Shown here piece by piece: positions 52,363 to 56,972 of a stretch of DNA of 64,000 bases (positions within the stretch are counted from its first letter, which is position 1; every line of letters starts with the position of its first letter). The DNA comes from Methylobacterium sp. FF17 (GTDB lineage: Bacteria; Pseudomonadota; Alphaproteobacteria; Rhizobiales; Beijerinckiaceae), in assembly GCF_025813715.1 (NCBI RefSeq), contig NZ_CP107532.1:1798001-1862000 (forward strand), given 5' to 3'. The translations under genes and the position numbers were made by a program. Below the pieces are notes generated by a model. The model was not told where the DNA came from and ran no database searches. It saw nothing but the letters and a program-made list of their open reading frames with translations.

Positions 52363-53130
52363 ATGAAGGCAGTGATCCTCGCAGGCGGCCTCGGCACGCG
52401 CCTCTCCGAGGAGACGGTAACGCGTCCCAAGCCCATGCTGGAGATCGGCGGTCGCCCGATCCTCTGGCACATCATGCAGATCTTCGCCGCCCACGGGGTG
52501 CGCGAGTTCGTGATCTGCCTCGGCTACAAGGGCTACGTCATCAAGGAGTTCTTCCTGAACTACCGCCTGCACCTGTCCGACGTCACCATCGACGTCGGGC
52601 GCGGCCACGTGGATTTCCACCGCAGCACCGCCGAGGACTGGCGCGTCTCGCTGATCGAGACCGGCGAGACCACGATGACCGGCGGGCGCCTGAAGCGCGT
52701 GCGCGAGTACCTCGGTGACGAGGACTTCTTCATGACCTACGGCGATGGCGTCGCCGACGTGGATCTGACGGCGCTCGCCGCCTTCCACCGGGCGCATGGC
52801 AGGCTCGCCACCCTCACGGCGGTGACGCCGCCCGGCCGCTTCGGCGCCCTGGAAATCGAGGACGGGGCGGTCCGCAACTTCCGTGAGAAGCCGGCGGGCG
52901 ACGGTGCGACGATCAACGGGGGCTTCTTCGTGCTCTCGCCAAGCGTCCTCGATCGGATCGCAGGCGATTCCACCGTCTGGGAGGCCGAACCGCTGGAGGG
53001 TCTGGCCGCCGACGGGCAACTCGCGGCCTTCGTCCATTCCGGCTTCTGGCAGGCGATGGATACGTTGCGCGACAAGAACCACCTCGAAGCCCTCTGGGCG
53101 GGCGATGCCGCGCCCTGGAAGTGCTGGTAG
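52363..53130 (+). CDS. rfbF: Glucose-1-phosphate cytidylyltransferase
   Basis: A 255-residue nucleotidyltransferase making CDP-glucose from CTP and glucose 1-phosphate. The signature is MKAVILAGGLGTRLSEETVTRPKPMLEIGGRPILWHI, and the metal-site Asp is in FFMTYGDGVADVD. CDP-type family features include NYRLHLSDVTIDVG and the C-terminal FWQAMDTLRDKNHLEALW. It opens a five-gene plus-strand operon; rfbG follows after 60 bp. RfbF commits carbon to CDP-linked deoxysugars, usually for O-antigen. Confidence 0.96.
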   Translation: MKAVILAGGLGTRLSEETVTRPKPMLEIGGRPILWHIMQIFAAHGVREFVICLGYKGYVIKEFFLNYRLHLSDVTIDVGRGHVDFHRSTAEDWRVSLIETGETTMTGGRLKRVREYLGDEDFFMTYGDGVADVDLTALAAFHRAHGRLATLTAVTPPGRFGALEIEDGAVRNFREKPAGDGATINGGFFVLSPSVLDRIAGDSTVWEAEPLEGLAADGQLAAFVHSGFWQAMDTLRDKNHLEALWAGDAAPWKCW

Positions 53131-53190
53131 TCTCGAGATCCGCCTGAAATCCGCCGACGACGCGTCAAGCCACCGGAGACCGATCGAAGC

Positions 53191-54297
53191 GTGCAGCCCT
53201 CGCCCTTCCCCCTGCCGCGTACCCGCGACCCGAACCCGGATCCCGCCTTCTGGGCCGGGCGGCGGGTGCTCGTCACCGGGCATACCGGCTTCAAGGGCGG
53301 GTGGCTCTGCCTCTGGCTGGAGCGTCTGGGCGCGCGGGTGAGCGGGCTGGCCCTCGCCCCGGAGGAGACGCCGAACCTGTTCGCGGCAGCACAGATCGAC
53401 TCCGGCCTCGACTCGCACTTCGTCGACATCCGGGATGCGGGCGCCGTGCGCGACGCCCTCGCGGCGACCGCGCCCGAGATCGTCATCCATATGGCGGCGC
53501 AGGCCCTGGTACGGGCCTCCTACCAGGAACCGCTCGCCACCTACGCCATCAACGTCATGGGCACCGCCCACCTGCTGGAGGCGGTACGGGCGACACCCTC
53601 CGTGCGCGCGGTCGTGGTGGTGACGAGCGACAAGGCCTACGAGAACCGCGAATGGCCCTACGGTTACCGTGAGACCGAGGCCCTCGGGGGGCACGACCCC
53701 TACAGCAGCTCCAAGGCCTGCGCCGAACTCGTTGCGGCGGCCTACCGCGCCTCGTTCCTCGCCGAGCGGGATTGCCGTCTCGCCACCGCGCGCGCGGGCA
53801 ACGTCATCGGCGGCGGCGACTGGTCGAAGGACCGGCTCGTGCCCGACCTCGTCCGGGCCTTCGCGCGGGGCGAGTCCGTGGAAATCCGCGCGCCGCACGC
53901 CACCCGTCCCTGGCAGCACGTGCTGGAACCCCTGAGCGGCTACCTGCGCCTCGCCGAATGCCTGTGCGGCGAGGCGGGCGCCCGCTATGCCGAGGCCTGG
54001 AACTTCGGCCCGGCGGACGAGGATTGCCGGCCCGTGGCCCATATCGTCGATGAACTCGCGCAGGGCTGGGGTCCGGAGGCCCTGTGGCACCTCTCCGAGG
54101 CGATCCACCCGCACGAGGCGACCTTCCTCAAGGTCGATTCCGCCAAGGCCCGGGCCCATCTCGGCTGGGACCGGCGCCTGCGCCTCGACGCGGCGCTCGC
54201 CTGGACCGCCGCCTGGTACCGGGCCGAGGCCACGGGGGCCAGCGCCCGCGATCTCACCCTGGCGCAGATCGGCGCCTACGAAGCCCTGGGAGCCTGA
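53191..54297 (+). CDS. rfbG: CDP-glucose 4,6-dehydratase
   Basis: A 368-residue short-chain dehydrogenase-fold enzyme converting CDP-glucose to CDP-4-keto-6-deoxyglucose. It has the diagnostic GHTGFKGGWLCLWL NAD motif, VVTSDKAYEN, the catalytic Tyr-x-x-x-Lys in YSSSKACAE, and the GDWSKDRLVPDLVRA and PWQHVLEPLSGYL stretches. The GTG start has GGAGA and GAAG upstream. The expected next enzyme for tyvelose or abequose pathways (RfbH, a 3-dehydrase) is missing; a methyltransferase follows instead, 5 bp downstream. Confidence 0.95.
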   Translation: MQPSPFPLPRTRDPNPDPAFWAGRRVLVTGHTGFKGGWLCLWLERLGARVSGLALAPEETPNLFAAAQIDSGLDSHFVDIRDAGAVRDALAATAPEIVIHMAAQALVRASYQEPLATYAINVMGTAHLLEAVRATPSVRAVVVVTSDKAYENREWPYGYRETEALGGHDPYSSSKACAELVAAAYRASFLAERDCRLATARAGNVIGGGDWSKDRLVPDLVRAFARGESVEIRAPHATRPWQHVLEPLSGYLRLAECLCGEAGARYAEAWNFGPADEDCRPVAHIVDELAQGWGPEALWHLSEAIHPHEATFLKVDSAKARAHLGWDRRLRLDAALAWTAAWYRAEATGASARDLTLAQIGAYEALGA

Positions 54298-54302
54298 CCG
54301 GC

Positions 54303-55535
54303 GTGACCGCACTCCGCACCTGCCGTCTCTGCGGCGCGCGCCTCGATCGGAGCCTGGTCGATCTCGGGCTGTCGCCGCTCGCCAACGCCTATGTGCCGGC
54401 GGAGCGGGCGAACCGGGGCGAGATGTTCCACCCGCTCCATGCCTTCGTCTGCGAGACCTGCTTCCTCGTGCAGCTCGAAGCCTTCGAGACGCCGCAGGCG
54501 ATCTTCTCGGATTACGCCTACTTCTCGGGCTTCTCGGCGGGCTGGCTCGCCCATGCGGAGGCCTATGTCGCCGCCATGCAGGCGCGCTTCGACCTCGGCG
54601 CCGACAGCAAGGTCGTGGAGGTGGCGAGCAACGACGGTTATCTGCTGCGATATGTGGTGGCGCGCGGCATTCCCGCCCTCGGCGTCGAGCCGGCCGCCAA
54701 CGTCGCGGCGGTGGCGCGCGCGCGGGGGATTCCCACCGAGGTCGCGTTCTTCGGAGCCGAGACGGCCACCCGCCTTCACTCCGCGGGCCACGCGGCCGAC
54801 CTGATGGCGGCCAACAACGTGCTCGCCCACGTGCCCGACCTCCACGATTTCGTAGCCGGCTTCCGCATCCTCCTGAAGCCCGAGGGTGTGGCCACCTTCG
54901 AGTTCCCCCACCTCCTGCGGATGCTCGAGCAGCACCAGTTCGATACGATCTACCACGAGCATTTCTCGTATCTCTCCCTCGGGGTGGTGATCGGCCTTCT
55001 CCGCCAGCACGGCCTGCGGGTGTTCGATGTCGAGGAATGGCCGACCCACGGCGGCTCGCTGCGGGTCTTCGCCTGCCACGAGGGGGCCGCCCACGTTCCG
55101 ACCCCGGCCCTGGAGCAGGTCGTGCTCAGCGAATGGTCGGCGCAGCTCTTCGAGCCGGCGGGCTATGCGGGCTTCGGGCAGGCGGTGGCCGACATCAAGT
55201 GCGCCGCGCTCCGCTTCCTGATCGCCGAGCGTGAGGCGGGCCGGACGGTCTGCGCCTACGGGGCGGCGGCCAAGGGCAACACCTTCCTCAACTATTGCGG
55301 CATCGGCCCCGAACTGGTGCGGGCGGTAGCGGACCGCTCGCCGCACAAGCAGGAGACGCAGCTCCCCGGCAGCCGCATCCCGGTGGTTTCGCCCGACGCG
55401 CTCCTCGCCCTCAGGCCGGACTGCGTCCTGATCCTGCCCTGGAACCTCAAGGACGAGATCGCCTCCGAGATGACCGCCATTCGGGATTGGGGCGGGCGCT
55501 TCGTCACCGCGATCCCACGTCTGACCGTATTCTGA
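54303..55535 (+). CDS. Sugar C-methyltransferase (TylC3/NovU-like)
   Basis: A 410-residue three-domain methyltransferase. The N-terminal zinc module is CRLCG...FVCETC (residues 7-60). The SAM-binding core has VVEVASNDGYLLRYV, AANNVLAHVPDL and EFPHLLRMLEQHQFDTIYHEHFSYLS. The C-terminal domain contains YGAAAKGNTFLNYCG. This architecture belongs to enzymes adding a methyl to C3 or C5 of nucleotide 4-keto sugars. The GTG start lies 5 bp after rfbG. It is the gene that turns this operon toward a branched sugar. Confidence 0.92.
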   Translation: MTALRTCRLCGARLDRSLVDLGLSPLANAYVPAERANRGEMFHPLHAFVCETCFLVQLEAFETPQAIFSDYAYFSGFSAGWLAHAEAYVAAMQARFDLGADSKVVEVASNDGYLLRYVVARGIPALGVEPAANVAAVARARGIPTEVAFFGAETATRLHSAGHAADLMAANNVLAHVPDLHDFVAGFRILLKPEGVATFEFPHLLRMLEQHQFDTIYHEHFSYLSLGVVIGLLRQHGLRVFDVEEWPTHGGSLRVFACHEGAAHVPTPALEQVVLSEWSAQLFEPAGYAGFGQAVADIKCAALRFLIAEREAGRTVCAYGAAAKGNTFLNYCGIGPELVRAVADRSPHKQETQLPGSRIPVVSPDALLALRPDCVLILPWNLKDEIASEMTAIRDWGGRFVTAIPRLTVF

Positions 55536-55539
55536 AGCG

Positions 55540-56070
55540 ATGGTCTTCGAAGCCCTGCCGCTCGCAGGCGCCTTCCGCGTCAGCCCCGAGCCCCACGCCG
55601 ATGAGCGGGGGTTCTTCGCCCGAACCGCCTGCGTGGAGGATTTCGCGGCACTGGGGCTGACCGGCGCCTTCGCCCAGTCCAGCATCTCCTTCAACGCCCG
55701 GCGCGGCACCGTGCGCGGCCTGCACTTCTCAGTGGAGCCCCACGCGGAGACGAAGCTCGTGCGTTGCACCGCCGGGGCGATCCACGACGTCATCGTCGAT
55801 CTGCGCCCCGGCTCCGCCACCTACCTCCAGGCGTTCGGCGCCGAACTCAGCGCCGCCAACCGGCAGGCCCTCTACGTCCCGGCGGGCTTCGCCCACGGCT
55901 TCCAGGCGCTCAGCGACGGGGCGGAGGTGCTCTACATGATCGACCGGCCTTACGTGGCCGGCAGCGCGCGCGGCCTGCGCTGGAACGACCCCGCCCTGCG
56001 CGTGGCCTGGCCCGAGCCCGTCACCCTGATCGCCGAACGCGACCTCGCTTATCCGGACTGGGAGCGGTGA
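55540..56070 (+). CDS. Nucleotide-sugar 3,5-epimerase (RmlC-like)
   Basis: A 176-residue cupin epimerase: ERGFFARTAC, SSISFNARRGTVRGLHFS (catalytic His62), KLVRCTAGAIHDVIVDLRPGS, FAHGFQAL and VLYMIDRPY with the active Tyr. The length and motifs match dTDP-4-keto-6-deoxyhexose 3,5-epimerases, but in this operon the substrate is probably CDP-linked. It starts 4 bp after the methyltransferase and its stop overlaps the next start (GTGA). It could act at one or both carbons. Confidence 0.92.
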   Translation: MVFEALPLAGAFRVSPEPHADERGFFARTACVEDFAALGLTGAFAQSSISFNARRGTVRGLHFSVEPHAETKLVRCTAGAIHDVIVDLRPGSATYLQAFGAELSAANRQALYVPAGFAHGFQALSDGAEVLYMIDRPYVAGSARGLRWNDPALRVAWPEPVTLIAERDLAYPDWER

Positions 56071-56972
56071 GCGGCCGCGTTCTCGTCACCGGCGCCACCG
56101 GCTTCGTCGGTCGCCACGTGCTGCCGGCCCTGGCCGCGCGCGGCTTCGCGGTTCACGGCGTCGGACGCGCGCCAGGGGCGGATCCGCGAATCCGCTCCGT
56201 CGACCTGCTGGTTCCCGAAGCGCGGCGCGCCCTCATCGACGAGGTCCGTCCGACCCACATCCTGCACCTCGCCTGGGATGCCGAGCCGGGCCGGTACTGG
56301 ACGTCCCCGACCAACCTCGACTGGGTCGCCGCCAGCCTCGACCTCGCGCGGCTCTTCGCGGCGGCGGGTGGGCGGCGCTTCGTCGGCGTCGGCACCTGCG
56401 CCGAGTACGAATGGGGCGCGCCCCGCCTCGACGAGGCGACGACCCCGTGCCGGCCCGCGACCCTCTACGGGGCGGCCAAGGACGGCACGCGACGCATCCT
56501 GTCGGCTCATGCCGATACCGAAGGCGTCACCTTCGCCTGGGGCCGCCTGTTCTATCTCTACGGCCCGGGCGAGCGACGCGGGCGCCTCGTCTCCGATGCG
56601 ATCCACGCCCTGATGACCGGCGCGGTGTTCCCGACCTCCCCCGGCCATCAGCGCCGGGACTTCCTTCATGTCGCGGACGCTGCTGCCGCGCTCGCCGCGC
56701 TGGTGGCCAGCGACGTGACGGGGCCTGTCAATATCGGCTCCGGGGCGGCCATGCCGGTCCGCGCCCTTCTCGACGGGCTCGCCACCCGGATCGGAGGCGC
56801 CGAACGCCTCGCCTACGGCGCCCGCACGCTCGGCGCGATGGAGCCTCCGGTGATCGAGGCGGAGACGCGCATCCTCACCGAGGCGGTGGGCTTCCGGCCA
56901 GCCTTCGCGGGTGCACGCGGCCTGGACGATACGGTGGCCTGGTGGCGGGCACGGGGCACCGCGTCCGCCTGA
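56067..56972 (+). CDS. NAD(P)-dependent nucleotide-sugar 4-ketoreductase/epimerase
   Basis: A 301-residue extended short-chain dehydrogenase: VLVTGATGFVGRHV, GVGTCAEYEWG, catalytic YGAAKDGTRR, LFYLYGPGERRGRLV and RRDFLHVADAAAAL. As the last enzyme after dehydratase, C-methyltransferase and epimerase, 4-keto reduction to the final sugar is the likeliest step. The GTG start overlaps the epimerase stop by four bases. Whether NADH or NADPH is used is not clear. No glycosyltransferase follows; the operon ends here. Confidence 0.88.
   Translation: MSGRVLVTGATGFVGRHVLPALAARGFAVHGVGRAPGADPRIRSVDLLVPEARRALIDEVRPTHILHLAWDAEPGRYWTSPTNLDWVAASLDLARLFAAAGGRRFVGVGTCAEYEWGAPRLDEATTPCRPATLYGAAKDGTRRILSAHADTEGVTFAWGRLFYLYGPGERRGRLVSDAIHALMTGAVFPTSPGHQRRDFLHVADAAAALAALVASDVTGPVNIGSGAAMPVRALLDGLATRIGGAERLAYGARTLGAMEPPVIEAETRILTEAVGFRPAFAGARGLDDTVAWWRARGTASA

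Follow-up and report, generated by a model that had tools for sequence, protein, structure and literature searches.

A stretch of 64,000 nucleotides from the genome of Methylobacterium sp. FF17 (contig NZ_CP107532.1, positions 1,798,001 to 1,862,000; henceforth the window) contains, at its positions 52363–56972, a compact operon of five intact genes on the + strand that encode, in this order, RfbF, RfbG, a methyltransferase, an epimerase and a short-chain dehydrogenase/reductase (SDR). Judging by sequence, we consider it likely that the operon makes a branched sugar linked to cytidine diphosphate (CDP), namely CDP-6-deoxy-3-C-methyl-L-hexose. The pathway is probably widespread and of the CDP-vinelose type.

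Sugars with a C-methyl branch are familiar chiefly from antibiotics, where they are made on deoxythymidine diphosphate (dTDP). If the prediction is right, a CDP version would explain a recurrent gene set that has had no assigned function at many loci; annotated plasmid records label its methyltransferase only "class I SAM-dependent methyltransferase" (SAM, S-adenosylmethionine). Genes would thereby be assigned to CDP-vinelose, and the prediction would be testable in plant-associated and soil bacteria. For annotation, it would follow that rfbF and rfbG do not mark an abequose or tyvelose locus where rfbH is absent.

Enzymes of the predicted pathway

RfbF, RfbG, RmlC and RfbH were judged against NCBIfam equivalog cut-offs, and domains were assigned with Pfam. 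The first gene, rfbF (ddhA; 52363..53130, + strand, 255 amino acids), encodes a glucose-1-phosphate cytidylyltransferase that scores 433 bits on TIGR02623 (cut-off 300) and contains PF00483. It is followed by rfbG (ddhB; 53191..54297, + strand, 368 amino acids), whose product, a CDP-glucose 4,6-dehydratase, scores 474 bits on TIGR02622 (cut-off 278) and carries D147 and K148 together with Y171xxxK175. These four residues are invariant across 52 aligned sequences including that of the window, and [ST]DK with YxxxK is the signature listed for CDP-glucose dehydratases in Table 1 of PMC8987622. The window therefore holds the combination by which CDP-6-deoxyhexose pathways are recognized, that is, RfbF and RfbG at equivalog level with the Asp-Lys couple in the latter.

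RfbH, the C3 dehydratase of the CDP-3,6-dideoxyhexose pathways (abequose, tyvelose, paratose), was sought with NF011936 throughout the organism's own genome of 6.0 Mb. No match was obtained at E ≤ 0.001, and 14 control genomes gave matches only below the cut-off, so that the search had no true-RfbH positive control. Within that sensitivity, the absence of RfbH stated in the first-pass annotation extends to the whole genome, and an rfbH gene elsewhere that might work with rfbFG was not found. The genome contains one rfbG above the cut-off, which is the window copy, and one PF08421 match.

The third gene (54303..55535, + strand, GTG start, 410 amino acids) encodes a sugar C-methyltransferase of the TylC3/TcaB9/MtmC type, a family that acts on 4-keto-6-deoxy nucleoside diphosphate (NDP) sugars. 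Three domains score above their cut-offs, PF08421 (74.6 bits), PF13489 (45.9 bits) and PF08484 (186.8 bits), and there is no NCBIfam match. The zinc-module residues Cys7, Cys10, Cys50 and Cys53 are invariant in 81 of 81 methyltransferases (the window enzyme and 80 relatives), as are Tyr71, Tyr217, Glu219, His220 and the YHEH motif. Residues Y71, H176, Y217, E219 and H220 of the window enzyme align with Y76, H181, Y222, E224 and H225 of TcaB9, which we take, in role and in numbering, to be its active-site residues; the 4e2y sequence has Q at the Glu position. At H176, the equivalent of TcaB9 His181, 71 of the 81 sequences have His and 10 have Gln. The enzyme belongs to this type by its zinc module and SAM fold, by the C-methyltransferase domain at its C-terminus and by its active-site residues. 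Sequences of solved structures were matched in 11 cases, the best being 4rv9, a D-mycarose 3-C-methyltransferase (E 2e-79), 5t64 and 5t6b ("sugar 3-C-methyl transferase"), and TcaB9 (3ndi and variants); the top ten all bear the name TcaB9 or 3-C-methyltransferase, and the last, a putative methyltransferase, matches weakly.

The fourth gene (55540..56070, + strand, 176 amino acids) encodes an RmlC-type 3,5-epimerase (PF00908, 194 bits) whose score of 153.4 bits on the RmlC equivalog TIGR01221 is just below the cut-off of 155.75; its proposed role is that of a C5 epimerase acting on the C-methylated 4-keto sugar. H62 and K72 are kept in 69 of 69 aligned sequences, Y132 in 68 and D168 in 66, the remainder being gaps, and by analogy with RmlC we assume these residues to be catalytic. 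The epimerase is not the only one in the genome, since a second RmlC-type gene is present (G000:C1:4948460-4950093), with a lower-scoring dehydratase-like SDR roughly 0.1 kb away; this is probably an ordinary dTDP-rhamnose locus. The last gene (56067..56972, + strand, 301 amino acids) encodes an SDR (PF01370, 137 bits) with no NCBIfam equivalog match above cut-off, in which Y134 and K138 are invariant across 36 aligned sequences including the window's, and for which we propose the role of an NAD(P)H-dependent 4-ketoreductase.

The first-pass annotation had described a five-gene set including rfbF and rfbG in which methyltransferase, epimerase and reductase follow in near-overlapping order, and this description is confirmed. 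All five genes are intact and on one strand, and rfbF and rfbG pass their equivalog cut-offs; 60 nt separate rfbF from rfbG, 5 nt rfbG from the methyltransferase and 4 nt the methyltransferase from the epimerase, whose last 4 nt are shared with the SDR gene. Pfam likewise upholds the zinc-module C-methyltransferase and the RmlC-type epimerase, whereas the label "4-ketoreductase" is an inference, because the last gene matches only the generic SDR family PF01370. That the product is a CDP-linked C-methyl 6-deoxyhexose, as was proposed, is well supported by the family matches, the CDP-type dehydratase signature and the conservation of the operon.

Conservation of the gene set and a candidate glycosyltransferase

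A contig scan yielded at least 562 relatives of the methyltransferase, the best 80 of which were fetched and analysed as loci; gene-order counts among these are lower bounds because some contigs end inside the set. In 50 of the 80 loci rfbG lies on the same strand within 300 nt upstream of the methyltransferase, in two more (L049, L075) it is further upstream, and in 26 all five genes occur in the window order with each gap at or below 300 nt. The complete set in the same order is found in 20 of the 20 Methylobacterium/Methylorubrum loci among those fetched, which argues that the grouping is not due to chance. Across 111 genomes of the genus, surveyed with E ≤ 1e-60 for the methyltransferase and the equivalog cut-off for rfbG, rfbG is present in 62 (64 places) and the methyltransferase in 50 (53 places). 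The methyltransferase is downstream of rfbG in 42 of its 53 places, with a gap of 24–148 nt in 41 and of 1002 nt in one, and not in the other 11; those with at least 70% identity are directly downstream of rfbG without exception (40/40). The set is common in Methylobacterium, where it is an ordinary operon, and is found in several phyla; it is not peculiar to the window.

Among the matches listed, the closest named relatives of the methyltransferase, at 88% identity, come from M. goesingense DSM 21331, Methylobacterium sp. Leaf104 and a Methylobacterium metagenome-assembled genome, and a tree comprising 86 methyltransferases groups the window enzyme with these three. Its rfbG-associated members, 55 in all, span Pseudomonadota, Cyanobacteriota, Nitrospirota, Synergistota and Bacillota and are separated by one change from the 10 members that bear Gln at the position of H176, in a tree where 21 rows belong to neither group and are uncounted, two outgroup rows are very long and bootstrap support is unsettled. 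The Gln group consists of nine Acidobacteriota and one Bacteroidota, is nested inside the tree and has no rfbG beside any member. In all 10 of its loci (L039, L041, L050, L055, L061, L063, L064, L066, L067, L076) an NTP transferase distantly like rfbF (34–41% identity) is encoded downstream. A different arrangement, with an unlike SDR and no rfbG between rfbF and the methyltransferase, occurs in L022 (6892-7950), L046 (2610-3635), L052 (5559-6662) and L072 (5594-6655); these SDRs begin, for example, with MRVLITGNMGYVGP or MKVLVTGTEGYLGS, and the L022 copy, the one scanned, is PF01370. Perhaps this is a variant CDP-sugar route without 4,6-dehydration. Eight Methylobacterium genomes (G006, G016, G020, G033, G042, G094, G097, G098) also contain a second type of methyltransferase, 39% identical, with no rfbG directly upstream.

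On its upstream side the operon is bordered by genes for a MarR regulator and an EamA transporter, and on its downstream side by those for a class III aminotransferase and a TonB receptor, these being the four flanking genes scanned. In the Methylorubrum clade, each of the 10 loci (L005-L012, L014, L015; the L011 copy is cut by the contig end, and the Pfam assignment is that of the L005 copy) has, immediately ahead of rfbF, a gene for a GT2-domain protein of some 766 amino acids. Eight further loci have homologues no more than about 7.5 kb from the methyltransferase; in L029 and L032 these are right beside the set. The best homologue in the FF17 genome is an unlinked double GT2 protein of 741 amino acids with 52% identity, in which the counted stop is the gene's own end. 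A GT2 homologue (E ≤ 1e-110) is present in 33 of the 40 genus genomes whose methyltransferase has at least 70% identity, versus one of the 71 without; in the seven of the 40 that lack it, the methyltransferase is always 70–76% identical. Since many of the homologues are of the unlinked type and these seven share this identity range, the association may follow clades; it is taken neither as independent evidence nor as proof.

Predicted product and competing explanations

In the proposed pathway, RfbF would convert CTP (cytidine triphosphate) and glucose 1-phosphate to CDP-glucose, and RfbG would convert this to CDP-4-keto-6-deoxy-D-glucose. The methyltransferase would then deprotonate C3, beside the 4-ketone, and add the methyl group of SAM with inversion at C3. 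Because the methylated C3 carries no hydrogen, the epimerase would invert C5 alone, moving the sugar to the L series, and the SDR would reduce C4. Depending on the C4 configuration, the product would be CDP-6-deoxy-3-C-methyl-L-talose, which has the skeleton of vinelose, or the 4-epimer of this sugar, 3-C-methyl-L-rhamnose. Transfer to a surface glycan would follow, possibly by the large double-domain GT2 enzyme. The first two steps are predicted from family membership above curated cut-offs and the last three from homology, conserved catalytic residues and conservation of the operon; the regiochemistry, the order of methylation and epimerization, the C4 configuration and the acceptor are what we infer beyond that.

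TylC3 methylates C3 with inversion (PMC3539893). Stereochemical bookkeeping shows that C3 inversion with C5 epimerization leads to the L-talo or L-manno configuration, and that without the epimerase it leads to D-allo or to D-gulo, which is D-virenose. The pathway to virenose, to which the product had been likened, belongs to the D series and needs no C5 epimerization, and in the window an epimerase is both present and linked. The analogy would leave this enzyme without a job, and virenose is rejected as the best reading of the product because the linked epimerase would lead to the L series.

Several observations speak against the proposed pathway. All the enzyme roles in the operon are predictions from sequence, and none of the four flanking genes scanned encodes a glycosyltransferase. 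In 28 of the 80 loci rfbG was not detected within 5 kb upstream of the methyltransferase on its strand, and in 19, with wider distance limits, neither rfbF nor rfbG is found upstream. In the genus, 22 of the 64 rfbG places have no such methyltransferase downstream; these rfbG genes presumably serve other CDP sugars.

The same enzymes can be arranged in other ways. Were the epimerase to act at C3, the methyltransferase at C5 and the SDR at C4, the product would be a CDP-5-C-methyl-L-hexose of the noviose type. The gene content suits this sequence of events equally well, and gene order does not fix reaction order. The novobiocin set NovV, NovT, NovW, NovU and NovS comprises the same five activities on dTDP; NovU presumably has the architecture of the window methyltransferase, and NovW (2c0z) is one of the weaker matches of the window epimerase among solved structures. 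We nevertheless consider a 5-C-methyl product unlikely, as the best of the 11 solved relatives matched by the methyltransferase are 3-C enzymes or TcaB9, and as the Azotobacter relative tied by inference to a 3-C-methyl sugar (see below) is 54% identical. Distinctly improbable is a product of the D series, 6-deoxy-3-C-methyl-D-gulose (D-virenose) or the D-allose isomer, with the epimerase unused on the methylated intermediate. Inversion at C3 and 4-reduction alone would yield D-gulo or D-allo, and the reductase of Campylobacter HS:41 makes CDP sugars of the D or the L series as set by the epimerase, according to the excerpted text of PMC12369002; yet the window epimerase shows the catalytic residues to be expected of such an enzyme, its gene overlaps that of the SDR, and an epimerase comes after the methyltransferase in all 20 Methylobacterium/Methylorubrum loci.

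It is more doubtful still that the methyltransferase acts on another substrate, with the remaining four genes forming an HS:41-like route to CDP-6-deoxy-L-altrose, L-talose or L-rhamnose. RfbF, RfbG, an epimerase and a reductase do suffice for CDP-6-deoxy-L-altrose in that Campylobacter, as far as the available part of PMC12369002 describes it, and the 22 rfbG places without a methyltransferase downstream are compatible with such a division of labour. Against it, the methyltransferase gene is inserted between rfbG and the epimerase with gaps of 5 and 4 nt, and its 40 close homologues in the genus all follow rfbG. A CDP-6-deoxy-3-C-methyl-L-hexose hence remains the preferred product.

CDP-vinelose and other known systems

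CDP-vinelose, a CDP-linked 3-C-methyl-6-deoxy sugar, was reportedly isolated from Azotobacter vinelandii in the 1960s. Its sugar, linked to CDP, is 6-deoxy-3-C-methyl-2-O-methyl-L-talose that bears an O-methylglycolyl ester on O4. Azotobacter-like genomes were sought through markers: OprF was found in 11 of 299 genomes sampled across the phylum, and the Pseudomonadaceae-like family of one carrier was then searched for the V-nitrogenase delta subunit, which is present in 7 of its 398 genomes. Two of the seven have the methyltransferase, G450 (54.5% identity) and G417 (52%). In G450, which has a second, lower-scoring delta-subunit match and which we take to be A. vinelandii, a single row of genes encodes RfbF (66%), RfbG (53%), the epimerase (47%), the methyltransferase, a hexapeptide acyltransferase, an SDR, an RMNT_CmcI O-methyltransferase, a PhyH dioxygenase and a TylF O-methyltransferase. 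The acyltransferase and the two O-methyltransferases would match the 2-O-methyl group and the O-methylglycolyl ester of CDP-vinelose. The RfbF, RfbG, C-methyltransferase, epimerase and reductase that this sugar calls for are present in the window and in G450, with the G450 SDR unlike that of the window; G417 carries a 38% homologue of the window SDR.

On one side of the G450 cluster (L096, 1-12627; G450:C1:2848000-2867500) flagellin and a TPR/GT41/GT2 protein are encoded, and on the opposite side, some 6 kb past rfbF, a sigma-70-family factor; in G417 (L097, 6306-17968) flagellin and a GT41 protein also lie beside the sugar set. This suggests that the Azotobacter cluster is a flagellin glycosylation island. 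A GT41 flagellin-type glycosyltransferase was not found in the FF17 genome, and the flagellin role is therefore not transferred to Methylobacterium.

The link to CDP-vinelose also faces contrary evidence. The open literature gave nothing for "vinelose", "CDP-vinelose" or a wider query, the identity of G450 as A. vinelandii is our own assignment, and the methyltransferase was not found in five of the seven V-nitrogenase genomes. The G450 SDR has no detectable similarity to that of the window, so the C4 configuration cannot be transferred from Azotobacter. The Azotobacter acyltransferase and O-methyltransferases have no match in the window, and in the FF17 genome PF04989 (RMNT_CmcI) matches only marginally, its 23.6 bits being just above the cut-off of 23.2 and the alignment spanning 45 of the 206 positions, hexapeptide transferases and acyltransferases elsewhere not having been searched. 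With these enzymes missing and the SDR different, the window would yield no more than the skeleton without its decorations, in one or the other configuration at C4. The full proposal would place the window operon at the core of the orphan CDP-vinelose pathway and treat CDP-6-deoxy-3-C-methyl-L-hexoses as a widespread but mostly overlooked class of sugar nucleotide in Methylobacterium, rhizobia, Azospirillum, cyanobacteria and several further phyla; in Azotobacter the complete set would serve flagellin glycosylation, and a nucleotide sugar known to us only as an isolated compound would thereby gain a role. This proposal seems to us evenly poised between right and wrong.

Among known systems, the dTDP routes of TylC3, TcaB9, MtmC and NovU proceed by 4,6-dehydration, C-methylation, epimerization and 4-reduction, which is the logic of the window set. 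The window enzyme shares the architecture and active-site residues of MtmC and TcaB9 with these routes (mycarose, tetronitrose, noviose), from which the operon differs in its carrier, CDP, and in having no 2- or 3-deoxygenation genes.

In Sinorhizobium meliloti, SMb21416 (ddhA), SMb21417 (ddhB) and SMb21418 ("NDP-hexose 3-C-methyltransferase"), annotated in 2013, are named in a list of species differences in PMC4053727. By their names, we match these to a row of rfbF, rfbG and methyltransferase on pSymB of strain 1021, part of a split set (L089, 12112-15224 and 23209-26036) in which the other genes lie apart. The methyltransferase is 53% identical to the window's. RMNT_CmcI, SDR and hexapeptide transferase genes lie on the other strand about 8–11 kb away, in the Azotobacter order hexapeptide-SDR-RMNT_CmcI with 69, 55 and 66% identity, and a divergent epimerase is about 10 kb away. 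The three genes in a row and the epimerase in the neighbourhood resemble the window; the split layout does not, and a homologue of the window SDR was not found in the 29 kb fetched, a further point against carrying the vinelose pathway over unchanged. An experimental paper with the same gene set or a CDP-C-methylhexose pathway was not found in the open literature, which is weak evidence, since most subscription journals fall outside it. To call the pathway undescribed, as was done at first, is thus too strong, a CDP-linked 3-C-methyl-6-deoxy sugar having reportedly been described in the 1960s and the S. meliloti trio being named in PMC4053727; what stands is that its enzymology was not met with in the open literature searched. 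The operon offers concrete candidate genes for CDP-vinelose.

The CDP-6-deoxy-L-altrose/D-fucose route of Campylobacter HS:41 shares CDP, cytidylyltransferase, dehydratase, RmlC-type epimerase and 4-reductase with the window and, as described in the excerpt of PMC12369002, has no C-methyltransferase and includes a pyranose-furanose mutase. For Coxiella virenose, TylC3-type 3-C-methylation of an NDP-4-keto-6-deoxyhexose has been proposed (excerpts of PMC3539893 and PMC3204966), with the difference that these proposals are linked to dTDP or guanosine diphosphate (GDP), the former reaching D-virenose by reduction alone and the latter starting from mannose. As for CDP-vinelose itself, the window has no genes for its 4-O-acyl and 2-O-methyl groups and encodes another SDR, so that C4 may differ, and it would share with it the CDP carrier and the 6-deoxy-3-C-methyl-L-talo skeleton that stereochemical bookkeeping predicts for the window operon.

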